IMG/VR virus record: IMGVR_UViG_3300027861_000238
Coordinates: 1 to 20,612 of that record
Direction: 5' to 3' (one strand)
Source of the DNA: a virus
DNA: 20,612 bases
The translations under genes and the position numbers were made by a program. The notes below the pieces were generated by a model, which was not told the origin of the DNA, ran no database searches, and worked only from the letters and a program-made list of their open reading frames with translations. Below, piece by piece: positions 1,352 through 19,931 of this stretch; position 1 is the stretch's first letter; every line of letters starts with the position of its first letter.

Positions 1352-1357
1352 TATTTA
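1352..1357 (-). promoter_or_regulatory. Late-type promoter element TAAATA before gp20
   Basis: On the minus strand TAAATA is followed by six bases and then the gp20 ATG at 1345. If it is used like the T4 late element TATAAATA (positions -13 to -6), transcription would start one base before the ATG. The two preceding bases are GG rather than the T4 TA. Confidence 0.55.
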
Positions 1358-2487: not shown

Positions 2488-2493
2488 TATTTA
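2488..2493 (-). promoter_or_regulatory. Late-type promoter element TAAATA before gp15
   Basis: TAAATA on the minus strand is separated by six bases from the GTG start of gp15, the same spacing as before gp20. It lies just past the stop codon of the upstream helicase gene (2495-2497), so the 13-base gene junction consists almost entirely of this element. Confidence 0.55.
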
Positions 2494-4524: not shown

Positions 4525-5001
4525 TTATCTATCCATGTAATTAGATTTATCGTCTCTAGACATTGGATACAAGATATTATTGTAAAATTCCCAAAATTTA
4601 TTCGCAGGAATGGTATTTATAACCACACAATTCTCTAAAGGGACGTTTCTATAGTCTTGCATTATGACATCCCACACCACAACCATATTATGTTTAGCTT
4701 CATTTATCTTCACCCCTCTAGCCTCTCTAAAGTTTAGAGATATCTTACCATCTCTACTTCTAAGTATTTTCGCACTATTAGTACATATCATATAACGCAC
4801 TGAAGGTCTGTGGGGTGCTCTCTTAGGTCTTCTACGAACAAACTGGATCTCACATACGTTACTATTCAATAATGTCGTGAGCGTAGCCCTGTTCACAGAA
4901 CCTCTATATGTTGGAGCAACAAATATATCTTTAATTTTATTAAAAGCTTGTGCTCCTTTAGCTTTAATACCGTCAATAAATTTTTGTAAGGGTGATGCCA
5001 T
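4525..5001 (-). CDS. DUF2693-like small SH3-like phage protein
   Basis: A 158-residue protein with a basic N-terminal part and a C-terminal region resembling the DUF2693 (SH3-like) proteins scattered through T4-like phages. The recognisable pattern is LLNSNVCEIQFVRRRP, then RYMICTN, and later VVVWDVIMQDYRNVPLENC, corresponding to the family's 'LxSNVCEVxFtK', 'R.M.CT' and 'vtVWDlekk.wRsFrvd' segments. The family has no firm function that I know of. The arginine-rich stretch (about residues 55-68) could contact nucleic acid, which is inference. A TAAATA element stands six bases before the ATG, and a perfect TATAAATA lies further upstream inside the preceding terminator, so late expression is likely. 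Confidence 0.75.
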   Translation of the reverse strand: MASPLQKFIDGIKAKGAQAFNKIKDIFVAPTYRGSVNRATLTTLLNSNVCEIQFVRRRPKRAPHRPSVRYMICTNSAKILRSRDGKISLNFREARGVKINEAKHNMVVVWDVIMQDYRNVPLENCVVINTIPANKFWEFYNNILYPMSRDDKSNYMDR

Positions 5002-5007
5002 TTTATA

Positions 5008-5013
5008 TATTTA
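5008..5013 (-). promoter_or_regulatory. Late-type promoter element TAAATA before the DUF2693-like gene
   Basis: TAAATA on the minus strand is followed by six bases and the ATG at 5001, matching the spacing seen at gp15 and gp20. It begins two bases beyond the U-tract of the upstream terminator. The surrounding sequence is very A/T-rich, so chance occurrence is possible. Confidence 0.45.
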
Positions 5014-5014
5014 C

Positions 5015-5053
5015 AAAAAAATAGGCTATAGGAACATCAACCTATAGCCTATT
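5015..5053 (-). terminator. Rho-independent terminator after the co-chaperonin-like gene
   Basis: A perfect 13-base inverted repeat pairs 5020-5032 with 5041-5053 around an 8-base loop. On the minus strand the stem is followed by a run of seven T (complement of 5021-5015). This is a textbook intrinsic terminator for leftward transcripts arriving from the co-chaperonin-like gene, which ends at 5089. On the plus strand the T-run is interrupted, so termination there would be weaker. Confidence 0.9.
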
Positions 5054-5057
5054 TATA
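5050..5057 (-). promoter_or_regulatory. Perfect T4-type late promoter TATAAATA overlapping the terminator stem
   Basis: The exact T4 late consensus TATAAATA occurs on the minus strand, its last four bases lying in the 5' arm of the terminator hairpin. With T4 geometry the transcript would begin near 5044, keeping only about four bases of the 5' arm and so being unable to form the full hairpin. It points toward the DUF2693-like gene. Confidence 0.6.
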
Positions 5058-5088: not shown

Positions 5089-5508
5089 CTATTCGTTGTC
5101 TAGCTTTTCAGCTACACCGAAAATTCTATTCTCGTTTAAGAAAATCCCATCTTTAAGTTTTCCTTCAACTCCATCCACATCCAGATTAGATACCTTGATA
5201 CCCATCGACTGTGGAAAAAGAATCACATCACCAACATTACATTGAGTGACTCCAACGCCCTTCAATCTAACTACAGCCTTACGCCATGCTTGATGTGTTT
5301 GAGACATTGGTACGAGGATACCATTACGTTCAATACAATCGCCACCCTCTCCAGAAACAACATCAATAAATTCTGCTAGAATGATATCATCCAACACTGT
5401 ACAAAGTTTATAACCTTCCAGACCAAAATCATCATTCATATCCTTCCTAGAAAAATCTAGGTGGGATTTCTGAGTAGCTAAATCATCAATACTTCTTCTC
5501 TCTTGCAT
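5089..5508 (-). CDS. GroES-like co-chaperonin (possible gp31 analogue)
   Basis: A 139-residue protein whose residues about 35-135 follow the GroES pattern. DDIILAEFID is the first strand. A glycine-rich mobile-loop-like stretch SGEGGDCIERNGILVP (about 52-67) resembles the GroES loop followed by GGIVLP. AVVRLKGVGV with VGDVILFPQSMGI (about 78-104) matches the 'GevlavG...vGDiVif..y' core, and GIFLNENRIFGVAE is the closing strand. GroES caps the GroEL chamber. T4 replaces it with gp31 so that the major capsid protein gp23 can fold. An N-terminal extension of about 30 charged residues and a long loop distinguish it. It is third in a unit after an AAA+ ATPase. A GGAG lies about 11 bases before the ATG. 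Assignment is by motif only; a phage-specific beta-barrel protein is the alternative. Confidence 0.65.
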   Translation of the reverse strand: MQERRSIDDLATQKSHLDFSRKDMNDDFGLEGYKLCTVLDDIILAEFIDVVSGEGGDCIERNGILVPMSQTHQAWRKAVVRLKGVGVTQCNVGDVILFPQSMGIKVSNLDVDGVEGKLKDGIFLNENRIFGVAEKLDNE

Positions 5509-5871: not shown

Positions 5872-7092
5872 CTATCTATTTATCATACCAGCAAATCCCA
5901 TCTTCTGTTTCTTAGAAACTTCTTCCCCATTATCCTTAGAGATGTTGAATAGCTCTGCGAGGGTAATTGGTTCAGTAGGTTCATGATCAATATCATAGAA
6001 CTTACATACATTCGTTGCTTCCTCTACATCTAGTTGATCGAAATGGTGGGAATAATATAGGCGACCTTTACGCTTCAATGCTTCATCCACCTTAGATTCT
6101 TCAACGTTGAATGTACACACCACTCGGATGTTTAATGAATCTTTTAGTAGTCCATCAGTCATTTCAAGAATGTTTTGTGTTCCTTGATTACGATCACCCA
6201 AGATCTCTTCAGCATCTTCAATAACGAAGATTGCATCTTTTTGATCCATTAGGAATGAGATGAATGCTGGGGATGTTAATACTGATGCCATCGAAGAAGG
6301 AATGTAAATTACAGTCTTATCTGTTTCAGCAATCATATTCTTAATGAAGTTTGTCTTGCCACTTCCTGCATCTCCATGAAGGAGCATCAATCCACCTTCA
6401 CGATCCAATTCATCATCTACAAAAAAGCTTTTGATAGTCTCTAATGGAAAGTCTTCTCCATATAGAATATCATAACGGTCATCCTTAATTGGTTTTGGGG
6501 CGAGTCTCATTGTTTCGGTATATATACTGTGAGATCCCTGACAAATGATTTTAAAATTGTTCTTTGAGTCCTTTGGTTTCTCTGGCATACTATCAAAGAT
6601 ATCAAAGATGTAATCTTTATTTTCTTCCAAGGGGGCGAATGTAAGTTCTACTGTTAAGTAAGCATCTTCATCTCCTGATTTTGTATACATGATCGACAAT
6701 ACAATCATTTTATCTAGATCTACAAACATATATGATGGTTCGCTATATGCACACGAACTATTCATTAATTGGAAATCTGTACCATCAATCTTACTTAAGA
6801 CGGTATCCAAGGAATCCATTGGAGTGCGTTTTGTGAGACATACATTTGGGCTATTTGTCCAAATATTACCAAAACTTGATGAGTACTCCAATACCACTGG
6901 AGCATCTTTCCTTTCCTGTTTAGATACTTTCTTGTGGTGATCGTATTCTTCTTGATTCAACCAAAGTATATTCTTCAAATTATTGGAATGTTCCTCTCTC
7001 AACTGCTCCTTCTCCCCACTTGGTGATAATTCTAGAGATGTTATGGTGCTATCTCTTGATACTCTGAATATTGATCGTCTTGTTCGTGTCAT
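5872..7092 (-). CDS. AAA+ ATPase
   Basis: A 406-residue protein with a C-terminal AAA+ module and an N-terminal half of unknown fold. Walker A is GDAGSGKT at about 240-247, Walker B is IFVIEDAE at about 288-295, a sensor-1-like TFN lies at about 327-329, and a RKGR at about 341-344 is a candidate arginine finger. The module resembles Bcs1/FtsH-type ATPases and similar single-domain AAA+ proteins of T4-like phages. No protease motif (HExxH) is visible. It is the first gene of a unit with the 116-residue protein and the GroES-like protein, suggesting a protein-remodelling role, which is inference. A strong sigma-70-type promoter ends six bases before its ATG. Confidence 0.85.
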   Translation of the reverse strand: MTRTRRSIFRVSRDSTITSLELSPSGEKEQLREEHSNNLKNILWLNQEEYDHHKKVSKQERKDAPVVLEYSSSFGNIWTNSPNVCLTKRTPMDSLDTVLSKIDGTDFQLMNSSCAYSEPSYMFVDLDKMIVLSIMYTKSGDEDAYLTVELTFAPLEENKDYIFDIFDSMPEKPKDSKNNFKIICQGSHSIYTETMRLAPKPIKDDRYDILYGEDFPLETIKSFFVDDELDREGGLMLLHGDAGSGKTNFIKNMIAETDKTVIYIPSSMASVLTSPAFISFLMDQKDAIFVIEDAEEILGDRNQGTQNILEMTDGLLKDSLNIRVVCTFNVEESKVDEALKRKGRLYYSHHFDQLDVEEATNVCKFYDIDHEPTEPITLAELFNISKDNGEEVSKKQKMGFAGMINR

Positions 7093-7126: not shown

Positions 7127-7155
7127 CAAAAAAGGAGAGGTTTTACCCTCTCCTT
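7127..7155 (-). terminator. Rho-independent terminator after uvsX
   Basis: A nine-base inverted repeat (7132-7140 with 7147-7155, loop of six) is followed on the minus strand by a run of six T. It lies 10 bases after the uvsX stop codon and ends exactly where the next promoter's -35 box begins, insulating the two units. Confidence 0.9.
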
Positions 7156-11715: not shown

Positions 11716-11745
11716 AAAAAAACCCTACCATATCGGTAGGGTTTT
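11716..11745 (-). terminator. Rho-independent terminator between glycosyltransferase and polymerase
   Basis: A seven-base G/C-containing stem (11723-11729 with 11735-11741, loop of five), extendable by A-T pairs, is followed on the minus strand by seven T. The last T touches the ATG of the polymerase gene. It would stop transcripts coming from the glycosyltransferase gene. Confidence 0.9.
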
Positions 11746-12922: not shown

Positions 12923-12930
12923 TATTTATA
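12923..12930 (-). promoter_or_regulatory. T4-type late promoter TATAAATA before the glycosyltransferase
   Basis: The exact T4 late consensus on the minus strand ends five bases (CGGAC) before the ATG at 12917. By T4 convention (-13 to -6) the A of the ATG would be position +1. A TTTACA 15 bases upstream means a sigma-70-type reading is also possible. Confidence 0.7.
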
Positions 12931-14769: not shown

Positions 14770-15799
14770 ATAACTTCTTTAGTTTCTTCTTCGACTTCTC
14801 TTTTATGTCATCTGAAAGATCCATAATATCGACAAACTCTTCCATAACGTCATATAGGTCAAAAGTCAAGTCTATTTCGTCTCCAGTTCCCATATTAACC
14901 ACAACGGTTGAATAGTCGTAATCTATGATAAATGGTTTTAGAGTTGCTGCATTGGTCTTAATAGCTAATACCTCCTTCTCAGATAATCCCGAATCAAAGA
15001 TAAGCTTGATAATGTTGTTTTCAACATCTTCTTCATCAAACTTGAAATCAGCATCATTAATAATGAACTTTTTGAATCTTGGAGAAACATCATTTTCAAT
15101 GAATTCCACTTCAGCAGTATCTAAGTCTAGTATATATACCCCCTTAATATCACCCTCGTCAGAAAAGTCCATTGGAAAGGTGTTTCCAACGTATCGGATA
15201 TCACCCTGTTTATACTTCTTAATAGATTTGGTATGAAAATGTCCACTATATACATTGCTAGAATGGCTCAATAGATGGGTGGGCGCGACTCCGTGTGTAC
15301 ACGTAGTATATCCATTCATAGAGAATGTAGTTACTTCAAAGTGTCCAAATAGGAACTCTGAGTCGTCCTCAACTTCATGACCCCAAGGGACGAAATTACA
15401 TGTATGTCCACAAATGTCATACATTTTGGGTTCGTCTATAAGCTCAATATTGTTCCAATTACGCATCATTCCAAGGGAATGTACATCACTTCGGTTTTTA
15501 TACCAAGCATCATGATTTCCTACGATAACATATATGGTGAAATTCTTGAAAATCTCTAATATCTGTGATCCAGTGTGGATAGTAGATACACTTACATCAG
15601 TTCTGTTGTGGAAAAAGTCACCAAGGAAGAATATAGTGTCTATATTCCGTTCCTCTAATTGCCCCTTTGTCCACTCAGCCCAATTGAGAGCATTTTTAAG
15701 CCACTTCTCACTGTCTGCATATAGACCCAAATGGAGGTCACTAAAAATAGCAACCTCCGAGTTTGTAGTTTCGTTCTTTTGTATTGTAATATTACTCAT
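14750..15799 (-). CDS. 47: Recombination endonuclease subunit gp47 (Mre11/SbcD-like)
   Basis: A 349-residue metallophosphoesterase (T4 gp47 is 339), the nuclease partner of gp46. Metal-binding motifs appear in order: SDLHLG at about 20-25, GDFFHNR at about 59-65, GNHDAW at about 93-98, CTHG in the middle and GHFHTK further on. An in-frame ATG at 15817 would add six residues but lies deep inside gp55. The ATG at 15799 overlaps the gp55 stop by only eight bases and is preceded by a purine-rich GAAGAAGAA, so I prefer it. It belongs to the uvsY-uvsW-55-47-46 unit. Confidence 0.95.
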   Translation of the reverse strand: MSNITIQKNETTNSEVAIFSDLHLGLYADSEKWLKNALNWAEWTKGQLEERNIDTIFFLGDFFHNRTDVSVSTIHTGSQILEIFKNFTIYVIVGNHDAWYKNRSDVHSLGMMRNWNNIELIDEPKMYDICGHTCNFVPWGHEVEDDSEFLFGHFEVTTFSMNGYTTCTHGVAPTHLLSHSSNVYSGHFHTKSIKKYKQGDIRYVGNTFPMDFSDEGDIKGVYILDLDTAEVEFIENDVSPRFKKFIINDADFKFDEEDVENNIIKLIFDSGLSEKEVLAIKTNAATLKPFIIDYDYSTVVVNMGTGDEIDLTFDLYDVMEEFVDIMDLSDDIKEKSKKKLKKLYEKNSI

Positions 15800-16259
15800 T
15801 ATAGAATTCTTCTTCATCTACTCCGTTGACTGGCTTTGCATATGTCTGGTTATTTGGATCTGACATGAATTCATCATGTACTTGTTGCCTATATTCCAGT
15901 AATCCCTTATGTTGCCTATTCTCTTTCTTGATTCTGTTACTAAAAGCGTTCCAAGCAATGGCGTTGAAATATGAGTATGGGTTATATGTTGATTCAATAT
16001 TGAATTGTTTCTTCTTCATGGCAGCATACATCTTGATAATTGCGTCTCCAACCATATCTTCTTTCCAAGATTGGGTATATTTGATGAATCTCCAGTTGAA
16101 ACTTAATCCTTCTGCTATCTTTTGAAGACCTTCTACCAGCTCATTACATGGAGTTTCATCACCACTATCATAAAAATCAACAATTAGTTGTCTAAATTCT
16201 TTAGAATTGATATAATACTTCTTCTTGATGTCTTCTGGTTTTGGTTCTTCGTCGCTCAT
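15792..16259 (-). CDS. 55: Late transcription sigma factor gp55
   Basis: A 155-residue homologue of T4 gp55 (185), the minimal sigma factor that directs host RNA polymerase to TATAAATA late promoters. The clearest match is KIAEGLSFNWRFIKYTQSWKEDM with FNAIAWNAFSNRIKKENRQ (T4 [23 protein letters not shown] and ACFNAFVQRIKKERKE). The short C-terminus ends EEEFYNE, an acidic-aromatic tail where T4 gp55 carries its sliding-clamp contact (SLDFLYE). The ATG overlaps the UvsW stop in an ATGA arrangement, so translation is likely coupled. Its presence supports reading the TAAATA elements in this window as late promoters. Confidence 0.93.
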   Translation of the reverse strand: MSDEEPKPEDIKKKYYINSKEFRQLIVDFYDSGDETPCNELVEGLQKIAEGLSFNWRFIKYTQSWKEDMVGDAIIKMYAAMKKKQFNIESTYNPYSYFNAIAWNAFSNRIKKENRQHKGLLEYRQQVHDEFMSDPNNQTYAKPVNGVDEEEFYNE

Positions 16260-18413: not shown

Positions 18414-18539
18414 TTAATGGGTTATAAAGTAATATACTATCAACCCTATTAGTATTAATAATGATAATATTGAAGAATACCATATCATATTAACAGTTTT
18501 ACCACCCCAACAGTCAAATCCACCATCTTTTTGCTCCAT
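18414..18539 (-). CDS. Small single-pass membrane protein, 41 residues (start revised)
   Basis: A 41-residue protein: a short polar N-terminus with one Cys and glycines (FDCWGG), then one strongly hydrophobic helix of about 20 residues (from about 19 to 38, containing ILSLLILIGLIVYYF). The frame could be opened from an ATG at 18596 for 60 residues, but a good sigma-70-type promoter lies inside that extension and its -10 ends seven bases before the ATG at 18539. I therefore take 18539 as the start. Function unknown; a small inner-membrane effector acting on the host is a reasonable guess from size and topology. No homologue is recognised. Confidence 0.55.
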   Translation of the reverse strand: MEQKDGGFDCWGGKTVNMIWYSSILSLLILIGLIVYYFITH

Positions 18540-18546
18540 AAAGTCG

Positions 18547-18574
18547 ATTCTACCACCAAAAAACGCTCCGTCAA
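18547..18574 (-). promoter_or_regulatory. Sigma-70-type promoter for the small membrane protein
   Basis: Minus strand: TTGACG (18574-18569), 16-base spacer, TAGAAT (18552-18547), seven bases (CGACTTT), then the ATG at 18539. Five of six bases match the consensus in each box, making it one of the best promoter matches in the window. Confidence 0.65.
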
Positions 18575-18661
18575 GCCAAAAAACGCGAAAATTCATTATT
18601 ATAATTCATTTCTAATTAATTGACTTAACTTACCTGTGTGACCTTATCTGGATTAGCTTCC

Positions 18662-18677
18662 AATTATTTAAATAATT
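18662..18677. repeat. Perfect 16-base A/T palindrome
   Basis: AATTATTTAAATAATT is its own reverse complement. It lies in the AT-rich divergent region and could be a protein-binding or unwinding site, or chance in such biased sequence. Confidence 0.6.
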
Positions 18678-18732
18678 ATATTAATAGCCCCGCAGGGAAC
18701 CACAAACTCAATTATTAACAACAACTAATAAT

Positions 18733-18760
18733 ATTTAACACAGCTTTTTTGGGTTGTCAA
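18733..18760 (-). promoter_or_regulatory. Possible leftward promoter without an adjacent gene
   Basis: Minus strand: TTGACA (18760-18755), 16-base spacer, TTAAAT (18738-18733). Unlike the other promoters here, no start codon follows at the expected distance. The transcript would run through about 190 bases of non-coding sequence toward the small membrane protein gene, so it may produce a non-coding RNA or a long leader. Confidence 0.4.
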
Positions 18761-18765
18761 GAACA

Positions 18766-18779
18766 AAATAATATTATTT
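18766..18779. repeat. Perfect 14-base A/T palindrome
   Basis: AAATAATATTATTT is its own reverse complement and lies just upstream of the leftward TTGACA box at 18755-18760. Confidence 0.6.
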
Positions 18780-18828
18780 AAGACGTATTAATACCTTATT
18801 ATATTATTCCCACCCACTCCTCCCTCTA

Positions 18829-18855
18829 CTTATAACAACTAATACAGATTGTCAA
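18829..18855 (-). promoter_or_regulatory. Second possible leftward promoter in the intergenic region
   Basis: Minus strand: TTGACA (18855-18850), a short 15-base spacer, TATAAG (18834-18829). Downstream sequence is purine-rich (GAGGGAGGAG) with no sizeable reading frame. The short spacer makes this weaker than the others. Confidence 0.3.
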
Positions 18856-18893
18856 CAACAAATTAAAATACTGGTAAGGACAACATAACGATC

Positions 18894-18899
18894 TAAATA
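18894..18899 (+). promoter_or_regulatory. Late-type promoter element TAAATA before the GIY-YIG gene
   Basis: TAAATA on the plus strand ends five bases (GATAT) before the ATG at 18905, so the ATG would be position +1 by T4 late-promoter geometry. No Shine-Dalgarno sequence is present. Confidence 0.6.
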
Positions 18900-18904
18900 G
18901 ATAT

Positions 18905-19360
18905 ATGAGTTCAAGATGGATTAATCTACCAGACAATTATTTAGATGATGAGTTACTGTTTGGTATTGTGTATATTATTAAGAATAACCACCCAGACAGT
19001 ATTAAGAAGTATTATATTGGTCAGAAACAAGCTAAGAAAAAGATTAGAAGACCCCCATTGAAAGGTAAGAAGGCTAAACGTATCTGTTATGTTGATAACA
19101 ATCTTGAAGAATATTGGGGATCGTCATCTGAGTTACATGATGACATGGAGAAGTATGGAGAACAATATTTCACTAAAGAAGTTCTGCATTGTTGCTGCTG
19201 TAAATGGGAACTCAATTACATGGAGACTATGGAACAATTTAAATATAACGTTTTGCTTGACGAGACTTGTTATAATGGTATAATCAATGTCAGAATAGGT
19301 AATGTCCCAAAGGCAGTACAAACTAAATATGACAAAGATTACACCAGCATTCGATTTTGA
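18905..19360 (+). CDS. SegE-type GIY-YIG endonuclease
   Basis: A 151-residue protein resembling the SegE group of GIY-YIG nucleases of T4-like phages. The core motif is GIVYII at about 20-25 with YYIG at about 36-39. Then come a basic PPLKGKKAKR (about 50-59), EYWGSSSELHDDMEKYGE (about 69-86), a glutamate-containing ELNYMETMEQF (about 102-112) with the likely catalytic Glu, and YNGIINVRIG near 123-132. Such enzymes cut DNA and can act as free-standing homing nucleases or have been adopted for phage functions. A cysteine run CCCC (96-99) is unusual. It is the first gene of the rightward block and carries a late-type element, whereas homing genes often lack tailored promoters. The next gene overlaps its end by 32 bases. 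Confidence 0.75.
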   Translation: MSSRWINLPDNYLDDELLFGIVYIIKNNHPDSIKKYYIGQKQAKKKIRRPPLKGKKAKRICYVDNNLEEYWGSSSELHDDMEKYGEQYFTKEVLHCCCCKWELNYMETMEQFKYNVLLDETCYNGIINVRIGNVPKAVQTKYDKDYTSIRF

Positions 19361-19928
19361 TACAAAATCCTACGATACCTACCCCCACGGAATCTATACT
19401 CTTGAGGATGGTAGATCTGGGATCATTTTCCAGTATTCTAGGAGAGAGATTGTGGATGTTGGTACATGTCTAGTACAATTTGCCAATCAACATTTCCTCA
19501 ATACATTAGATGATCTTGGTCTAGAGCTTACAATTGATTTAACCAATAGAACTAATGCGCGTTTATATAAGAACTCATTTGCCCAAGTTCTAATTACATT
19601 TTTAAGACAGAGAATGTTTGGTAATGACATATTTTTTTATCTAAATGAGTCTGATGTTGGAGATAACCAACTCAAATTAATAAAATCATGTTTCTCTTTG
19701 ACTGGAGTAGAGATAATTAGAGGAAATAAGTCAATAGATGGATTTTATGAAGATATATCGGACAATGATGCAACCACCATGACCTTAATTGATCTTCATT
19801 GCGAACATAACAAGCTAAACACATCCTCATCTATCAAAACCATGAAGAAAAAGGCTAAGGGTATGGGTTTAAATCACCTATATGACGAAATATTGCAAGA
19901 TAGGGACAATAAAGTAATTTTTAACTAA
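19329..19928 (+). CDS. Hypothetical protein, 199 residues
   Basis: I do not recognise this protein. It has mixed alpha/beta character with an N-terminal segment of alternating hydrophobic residues (GIYTLEDGRSGIIFQYSRRE) and no membrane segment or catalytic signature. The frame could start at 19302, but the ATG at 19329 gives less overlap with the upstream gene (32 bases) and is preferred. No ribosome binding site is seen; the sequence before the ATG is ACTAAAT. It lies inside a rightward block with a late-type element at its head, so it may be a late or virion-assembly protein, which is inference. Confidence 0.7.
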   Translation: MTKITPAFDFDTKSYDTYPHGIYTLEDGRSGIIFQYSRREIVDVGTCLVQFANQHFLNTLDDLGLELTIDLTNRTNARLYKNSFAQVLITFLRQRMFGNDIFFYLNESDVGDNQLKLIKSCFSLTGVEIIRGNKSIDGFYEDISDNDATTMTLIDLHCEHNKLNTSSSIKTMKKKAKGMGLNHLYDEILQDRDNKVIFN

Positions 19929-19931
19929 ATA
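19926..19931 (+). promoter_or_regulatory. Late-type promoter element TAAATA before the 116-residue gene
   Basis: TAAATA overlaps the stop codon region of the upstream gene and ends five bases (GTGAT) before the ATG at 19937, the same arrangement as at 18894-18905. Confidence 0.6.

Follow-up and report, generated by a model that had tools for sequence, protein, structure and literature searches.

The intergenic region between the 139-aa and the 158-aa genes of this phage probably (we put the probability at about 0.75) carries an ordinary terminator followed by a separate late promoter that abuts the downstream start codon and would produce a leaderless late mRNA, the perfect TATAAATA nested in the terminator stem being probably a chance occurrence. 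The observations behind this reading are the anatomy of the region, the placement of the late-promoter core 5-6 nt before start codons, its conservation at the downstream gene, the recurrence of the order terminator, box and start codon, and the nesting of boxes in terminators without enrichment. That transcription terminates at the hairpin, that the promoter is used, that RNA starts where stated below and that translation is leaderless are predictions from sequence. The hairpin at 5054-5019, with its U7 tract, would act as an ordinary intrinsic terminator for the minus-strand operon upstream (5089-5508). Late transcription would then restart at a separate gp55-type promoter, TGTAAATA (5015-5008), located just past the U tract, and the RNA would begin at the ATG at 5001 or one base before it, giving an mRNA that is leaderless or nearly so.

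The phage and its late transcription system

The window, that is, the whole stretch of 20,612 nt that was analysed, represents 20.6 kb of a T4-like myovirus genome and comes from a collection of uncultured viruses (IMGVR_UViG_3300027861_000238). It encodes a DNA polymerase, UvsX, UvsY, SbcCD-like proteins, a helicase, a tail sheath stabilizer and a gp55-like late sigma factor. A search of an annotated phage collection at the DNA level found no near relative of the window, and the best UvsX matches listed in that collection are about 33% identical; among uncultured viral contigs, near-identical copies aside, UvsX identity reaches 68%. Judged by its gp55-like gene, the phage encodes a T4-type late system. 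An HMM search with the 139-aa protein encoded upstream of the hairpin gave no match, and the sole match in a search for its relatives is a near-identical copy (L002). The features discussed below are listed in Table 1; in uncultured contigs, gene starts are mechanical calls.

Table 1. Positions of the genes, the hairpin and the late-promoter-like elements in the window
Feature	Position	Strand	Remarks
Portal gene, TAAATA	1352..1357	-	6 nt before start codon; portal identified from L174
Tail sheath stabilizer gene, TAAATA	2488..2493	-	6 nt before GTG start
Downstream gene, 158 aa	4525..5001	-	phrog_1086-like; start ATG 5001
TGTAAATA, predicted late promoter of downstream gene	5008..5015	-	6-nt spacer to ATG 5001; predicted start 5002/5001
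U7 tract of predicted terminator	5015..5021	-	last three 3'-arm bases and four more
Predicted intrinsic terminator hairpin	5019..5054	-	stem 14 bp, 5054-5041 / 5032-5019; loop 8 nt
Perfect TATAAATA overlapping stem 5' arm	5050..5057	-	probably incidental
Upstream gene, 139 aa	5089..5508	-	closes upstream operon; resembles gp31 co-chaperonin only in appearance
Glycosyltransferase-like gene, TATAAATA	12923..12930	-	5 nt before start codon
Late sigma factor (gp55-like) gene	15792..16259	-	phrog_234, 4.5e-23
SegE-like GIY-YIG endonuclease gene, TAAATA	18894..18899	+	5 nt before start codon
116-aa gene, TAAATA	19926..19931	+	5 nt before start codon

Anatomy of the intergenic region

Read 5' to 3' on the minus strand, from the 139-aa gene to the 158-aa gene, the intergenic sequence is TCATATAAATAGGCTATAGG-TTGATGTT-CCTATAGCCTATTTTTTTGTAAATATATAAAATGG. 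The arms of the hairpin stem (AAATAGGCTATAGG/CCTATAGCCTATTT) form five G-C pairs among others, and the fold has a predicted energy of -20.9 kcal/mol (z = -6.2, with 0 shuffles equally stable). A stable stem containing G+C and running directly into a U tract is what characterizes intrinsic terminators, and this is the arrangement found here; together with U7, the hairpin is most likely a terminator, predicted to end the upstream (5089-5508) operon. The stem stops 17 nt short of the ATG, and it contains no Shine-Dalgarno site.

Directly after the U tract comes TGTAAATA, which matches 7 of the 8 bases of TATAAATA. As expected of a T4-type late promoter, it is a TATAAATA-like box that would span -13 to -6 and belongs to a phage encoding a gp55-like factor, and its 6-nt spacer to the start codon is consistent with the position of the other late elements of this phage. 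Its departure from TATAAATA at one base, next to a nested box that is perfect, counts against the proximal promoter; the first two positions of the box vary freely among the other elements of the window phage.

Other hairpins were seen in this phage and its relatives. A 12-bp hairpin followed by a U run (AAAACCCTACCGATATGGTAGGGTTTTTTT; 11719-11745, minus strand) lies right against the ATG of the DNA polymerase gene. In T4, a hairpin upstream of the start of gene 43 serves as a translational operator (PMC3014915), and the hairpin of the window could likewise be an operator, or else an attenuator or a terminator. Between the gene for a clamp-loader-like ATPase and uvsX (7132-7155) there is a terminator-like hairpin of 9 bp that could serve either strand and that, on the minus strand, is followed by TTGACA. 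At 4063-4105 of L174, TAAATA overlaps the end of the portal gene, and after it comes a terminator with A and T runs on its flanks; a transcript starting from this TAAATA would retain the whole hairpin.

Conservation at the downstream gene

Homologues of the 158-aa gene are preceded by GTAAATA-ATTTAG-ATG in L003-L005 (6-nt spacer) and by CTAAATA-ATTAG-ATG in L006 (5-nt spacer). In all four loci the same upstream gene abuts, and there is neither a hairpin nor a TATAAATA. Since the hairpin segment has no counterpart in L003-L005, their sequences cannot be meaningfully aligned with the whole intergenic region of the window, and the comparison was anchored at the start codon instead. At the sequence level, the conserved element of this locus is the start-proximal TAAATA. 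Its overlap with the upstream stop codon in L003-L006 counts against the promoter reading.

Late-promoter cores immediately before start codons

In the window phage, TAAATA is found 5-6 nt before the start codon at 9/29 scored gene starts where about 0.2 would be expected (P ~ 4e-11); the 29 starts come from the window and its L174 extension, with the portal gene scored in both, so that 8 distinct genes are involved, and the P values treat genes as independent and the background as uniform. Genes bearing the motif in the window phage and L174 include those for the portal, the tail sheath stabilizer and a head-tail adaptor. The same placement is found in relatives (15/81 in G002, 28/142 in G003 and 35/165 in G006), although shared ancestry means that counts across relatives are not independent events. 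It is also found in the cultured Pelagibacter phage HTVC008M (9/50), where all nine positions match annotated gene starts with a spacer of exactly 5 nt. Mosig has four cases and cyanophage P-RSM6 two, and there are none in T4 (0/46), Syn9 (0/23) or Melnitz, in which the core mostly lies 14-36 nt upstream. The commonest hexamer at the 5-6 nt position is TAAATA in the window phage, G002, G003, G006 and HTVC008M; a shifted form of it leads in Mosig. Window-wide, the counts of TAAATA and TAAATAG are near chance, and the motif is informative only by its position relative to start codons. Shine-Dalgarno sites are nearly absent at the motif-bearing genes (0/9 in the window phage, 0/28 in G003). We also considered that TAAATA before starts might simply be the stop codon of the preceding gene; this explains only a minority of the cases.

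What such a placement would mean follows from the numbering of T4 late promoters, in which the first base of the box is at -13 and the last at -6 (PMC2988020). Since the box spans -13 to -6, a 5-nt spacer would put +1 on the A of the ATG, and with a placement of 5-6 nt the RNA would begin either with the start codon or one base ahead of it. Promoter position would thus place +1 at the start codon, as expected for leaderless mRNAs. Among loci related by uvsX (L008-L085), the sigma-70-like TATAAT shows a similar concentration at 6-7 nt from start codons (55 and 68 of 897 genes), which suggests that sigma-70-type early transcripts could be leaderless there too.

In the window, AT-rich DNA that appears not to code for protein extends for some 480 nt (18414-18890) before the SegE-like GIY-YIG endonuclease gene, which has its own start-abutting TAAATA. 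In HTVC008M (L176), divergent late genes at 18916/18943 are separated by a 26-nt gap holding two opposed TAAATA, each 5 nt from a start codon.

Recurrence of the order terminator, late box and start codon

All loci analysed yielded 94 distinct terminator-like hairpins. Thirteen of these (13/94), including the one at 6234-6280 of HTVC008M, are followed by TAAATA and, 5-6 nt further, by a start codon; several of the 13 represent the same gene in related contigs, leaving about 7 independent cases, and the exact start codon is uncertain for the family near uvsX. Because two similar control hexamers, ATAAAT and ATAATA, which share bases with TATAAATA, also score 8-9, the recurrence of this order is supportive rather than decisive as evidence for a restart promoter.

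The nested box and other readings of the region

The preliminary description of this DNA had proposed a late promoter nested in the terminator, such that transcripts arriving from upstream would stop at the hairpin while those starting at the nested box would lack most of its 5' arm and read through. The overlap itself is real, the perfect TATAAATA at 5057-5050 and the 5' arm having AAATA (5054-5050) in common, with a stem that we count at 14 bp rather than 13. T4 numbering (PMC2988020) does put the start from this box at 5044, as had been suggested, and the truncated RNA, which folds at only -4 to -6 kcal/mol compared with -20.9 for the whole hairpin, could not form the stem. There is also a precedent in the late promoters found in the 5' strand of hairpins at T4 gene e, I-TevI and others (PMC3014915, PMC2988022). 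Against a working nested promoter, however, the box is separated from the ATG at 5001 by a spacer of 48 nt, out of line with the 5-6 nt used by the window phage, and no Shine-Dalgarno site lies behind it in the resulting leader. Both the box and the hairpin are absent at the homologous gene in L003-L006, so that a promoter in the 5' strand is not conserved there (the near-identical copy L002 is uninformative on this point). A search for other boxes in terminator 5' arms, as had been advised, found TAAATA in 2/94, namely the hairpin studied here and one in L009, which is no enrichment over other 6-mers of the same composition (scores of 0-10, median 1). TATAAATA itself occurs in the window at chance level (4 vs 3.04 expected), two of the four copies being inside genes. 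Moreover, the element at 5008-5013, named at the outset as the alternative, is present, and since the hairpin and a separate promoter would by themselves give early-block, late-on behaviour, this canonical promoter downstream makes nesting unnecessary. The outcome that had been proposed, early transcription blocked and late transcription on, is thus likely to stand, whereas its nested mechanism gives way to a terminator followed by a separate promoter. We regard a switch operated by the nested box as very unlikely. It is also unlikely that two late promoters work here, the nested box adding a leadered transcript to the leaderless one: both boxes match well and T4 gene e has a tandem pair of late promoters (PMC3014915), but every objection to the nested switch applies again and nothing requires a second promoter. 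Taken together, a nested or additional promoter is rather unlikely, and the AT-rich sequence at the stem base has probably given rise to the TATAAATA at 5057-5050 by chance.

Instead of a terminator, the hairpin could be another kind of RNA element, for example one that stabilises a 3' end or marks a processing site; its 8-nt loop exceeds the 4 nt usual in T4 terminators (PMC2988022). We consider this highly improbable given a 14-bp stem with U7 immediately after it and the position of the hairpin between the end of an operon and a promoter; an Rfam search at the locus, moreover, returned no match. The TAAATA found 5-6 nt before starts could be a translation signal, for instance an AU-rich ribosome entry site, in which case 5013-5008 would be no promoter. 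The fixed position of the hexamer relative to start codons and the rarity of Shine-Dalgarno sites are compatible with such a role, but the hexamer is the core of the T4 late promoter and occurs here in phages that encode gp55; the named genes bearing it are largely virion genes (portal, gp3, head-tail adaptor), along with endonucleases and a glycosyltransferase; in T4, Syn9 and Melnitz this core mostly lies further upstream; and the concentration of TATAAT before starts in the uvsX-related loci is what leaderless transcripts predict. A translation signal therefore seems improbable. A terminator followed by a separate start-abutting late promoter remains our preferred reading.

Implications and comparison with known systems

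Extending this reading beyond a single locus, it seems fairly likely from the sequence comparisons that leaderless transcription applies to many gp55-dependent late genes in a branch of marine T4-like phages to which the window phage, several uncultured relatives and HTVC008M belong. The late promoter would double as the upstream boundary of the gene that it serves, and terminator, late promoter and start codon would form a compact module separating early from late transcription. If so, translation of late virion genes in abundant ocean phages would do without leaders and Shine-Dalgarno sites, and the sequence of these marine T4-like phages could be used to predict where their transcripts and genes begin. 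The rule that emerges is that in some of them, unlike in T4, the late box lies exactly one promoter-to-start distance before the start codon. We found no description of start-abutting late promoters or leaderless late genes in the open-access literature searched, and they may still have been reported elsewhere.

A close known parallel is provided by the late promoters of T4, which are read by gp55 (TATAAATA; PMC2988020) and have the same TAAATA core as those of the window phage, itself encoding a gp55-like late sigma factor. The T4 late box, however, is mostly 14-28 nt before the start codon, leaving room for a leader with a Shine-Dalgarno site, whereas at 5-6 nt no leader is expected in the window phage. 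T4 gene e and I-TevI have a late promoter in the 5' strand of a hairpin that is formed only by early transcripts (PMC3014915, PMC2988022), and the box at 5057-5050 is located in the same way. The hairpin of these T4 genes hides a ribosome-binding site, which is what defines their switch, whereas that at 5054-5019 has a U7 tract and looks like a terminator, and the window locus differs further by a second, better-placed promoter outside the hairpin. HTVC008M, a distant relative in which the nested box is absent at 6234-6280, resembles the window phage in having TAAATA 5 nt before nine starts and, at that same locus, the succession of terminator, TATAAATA and ATG.
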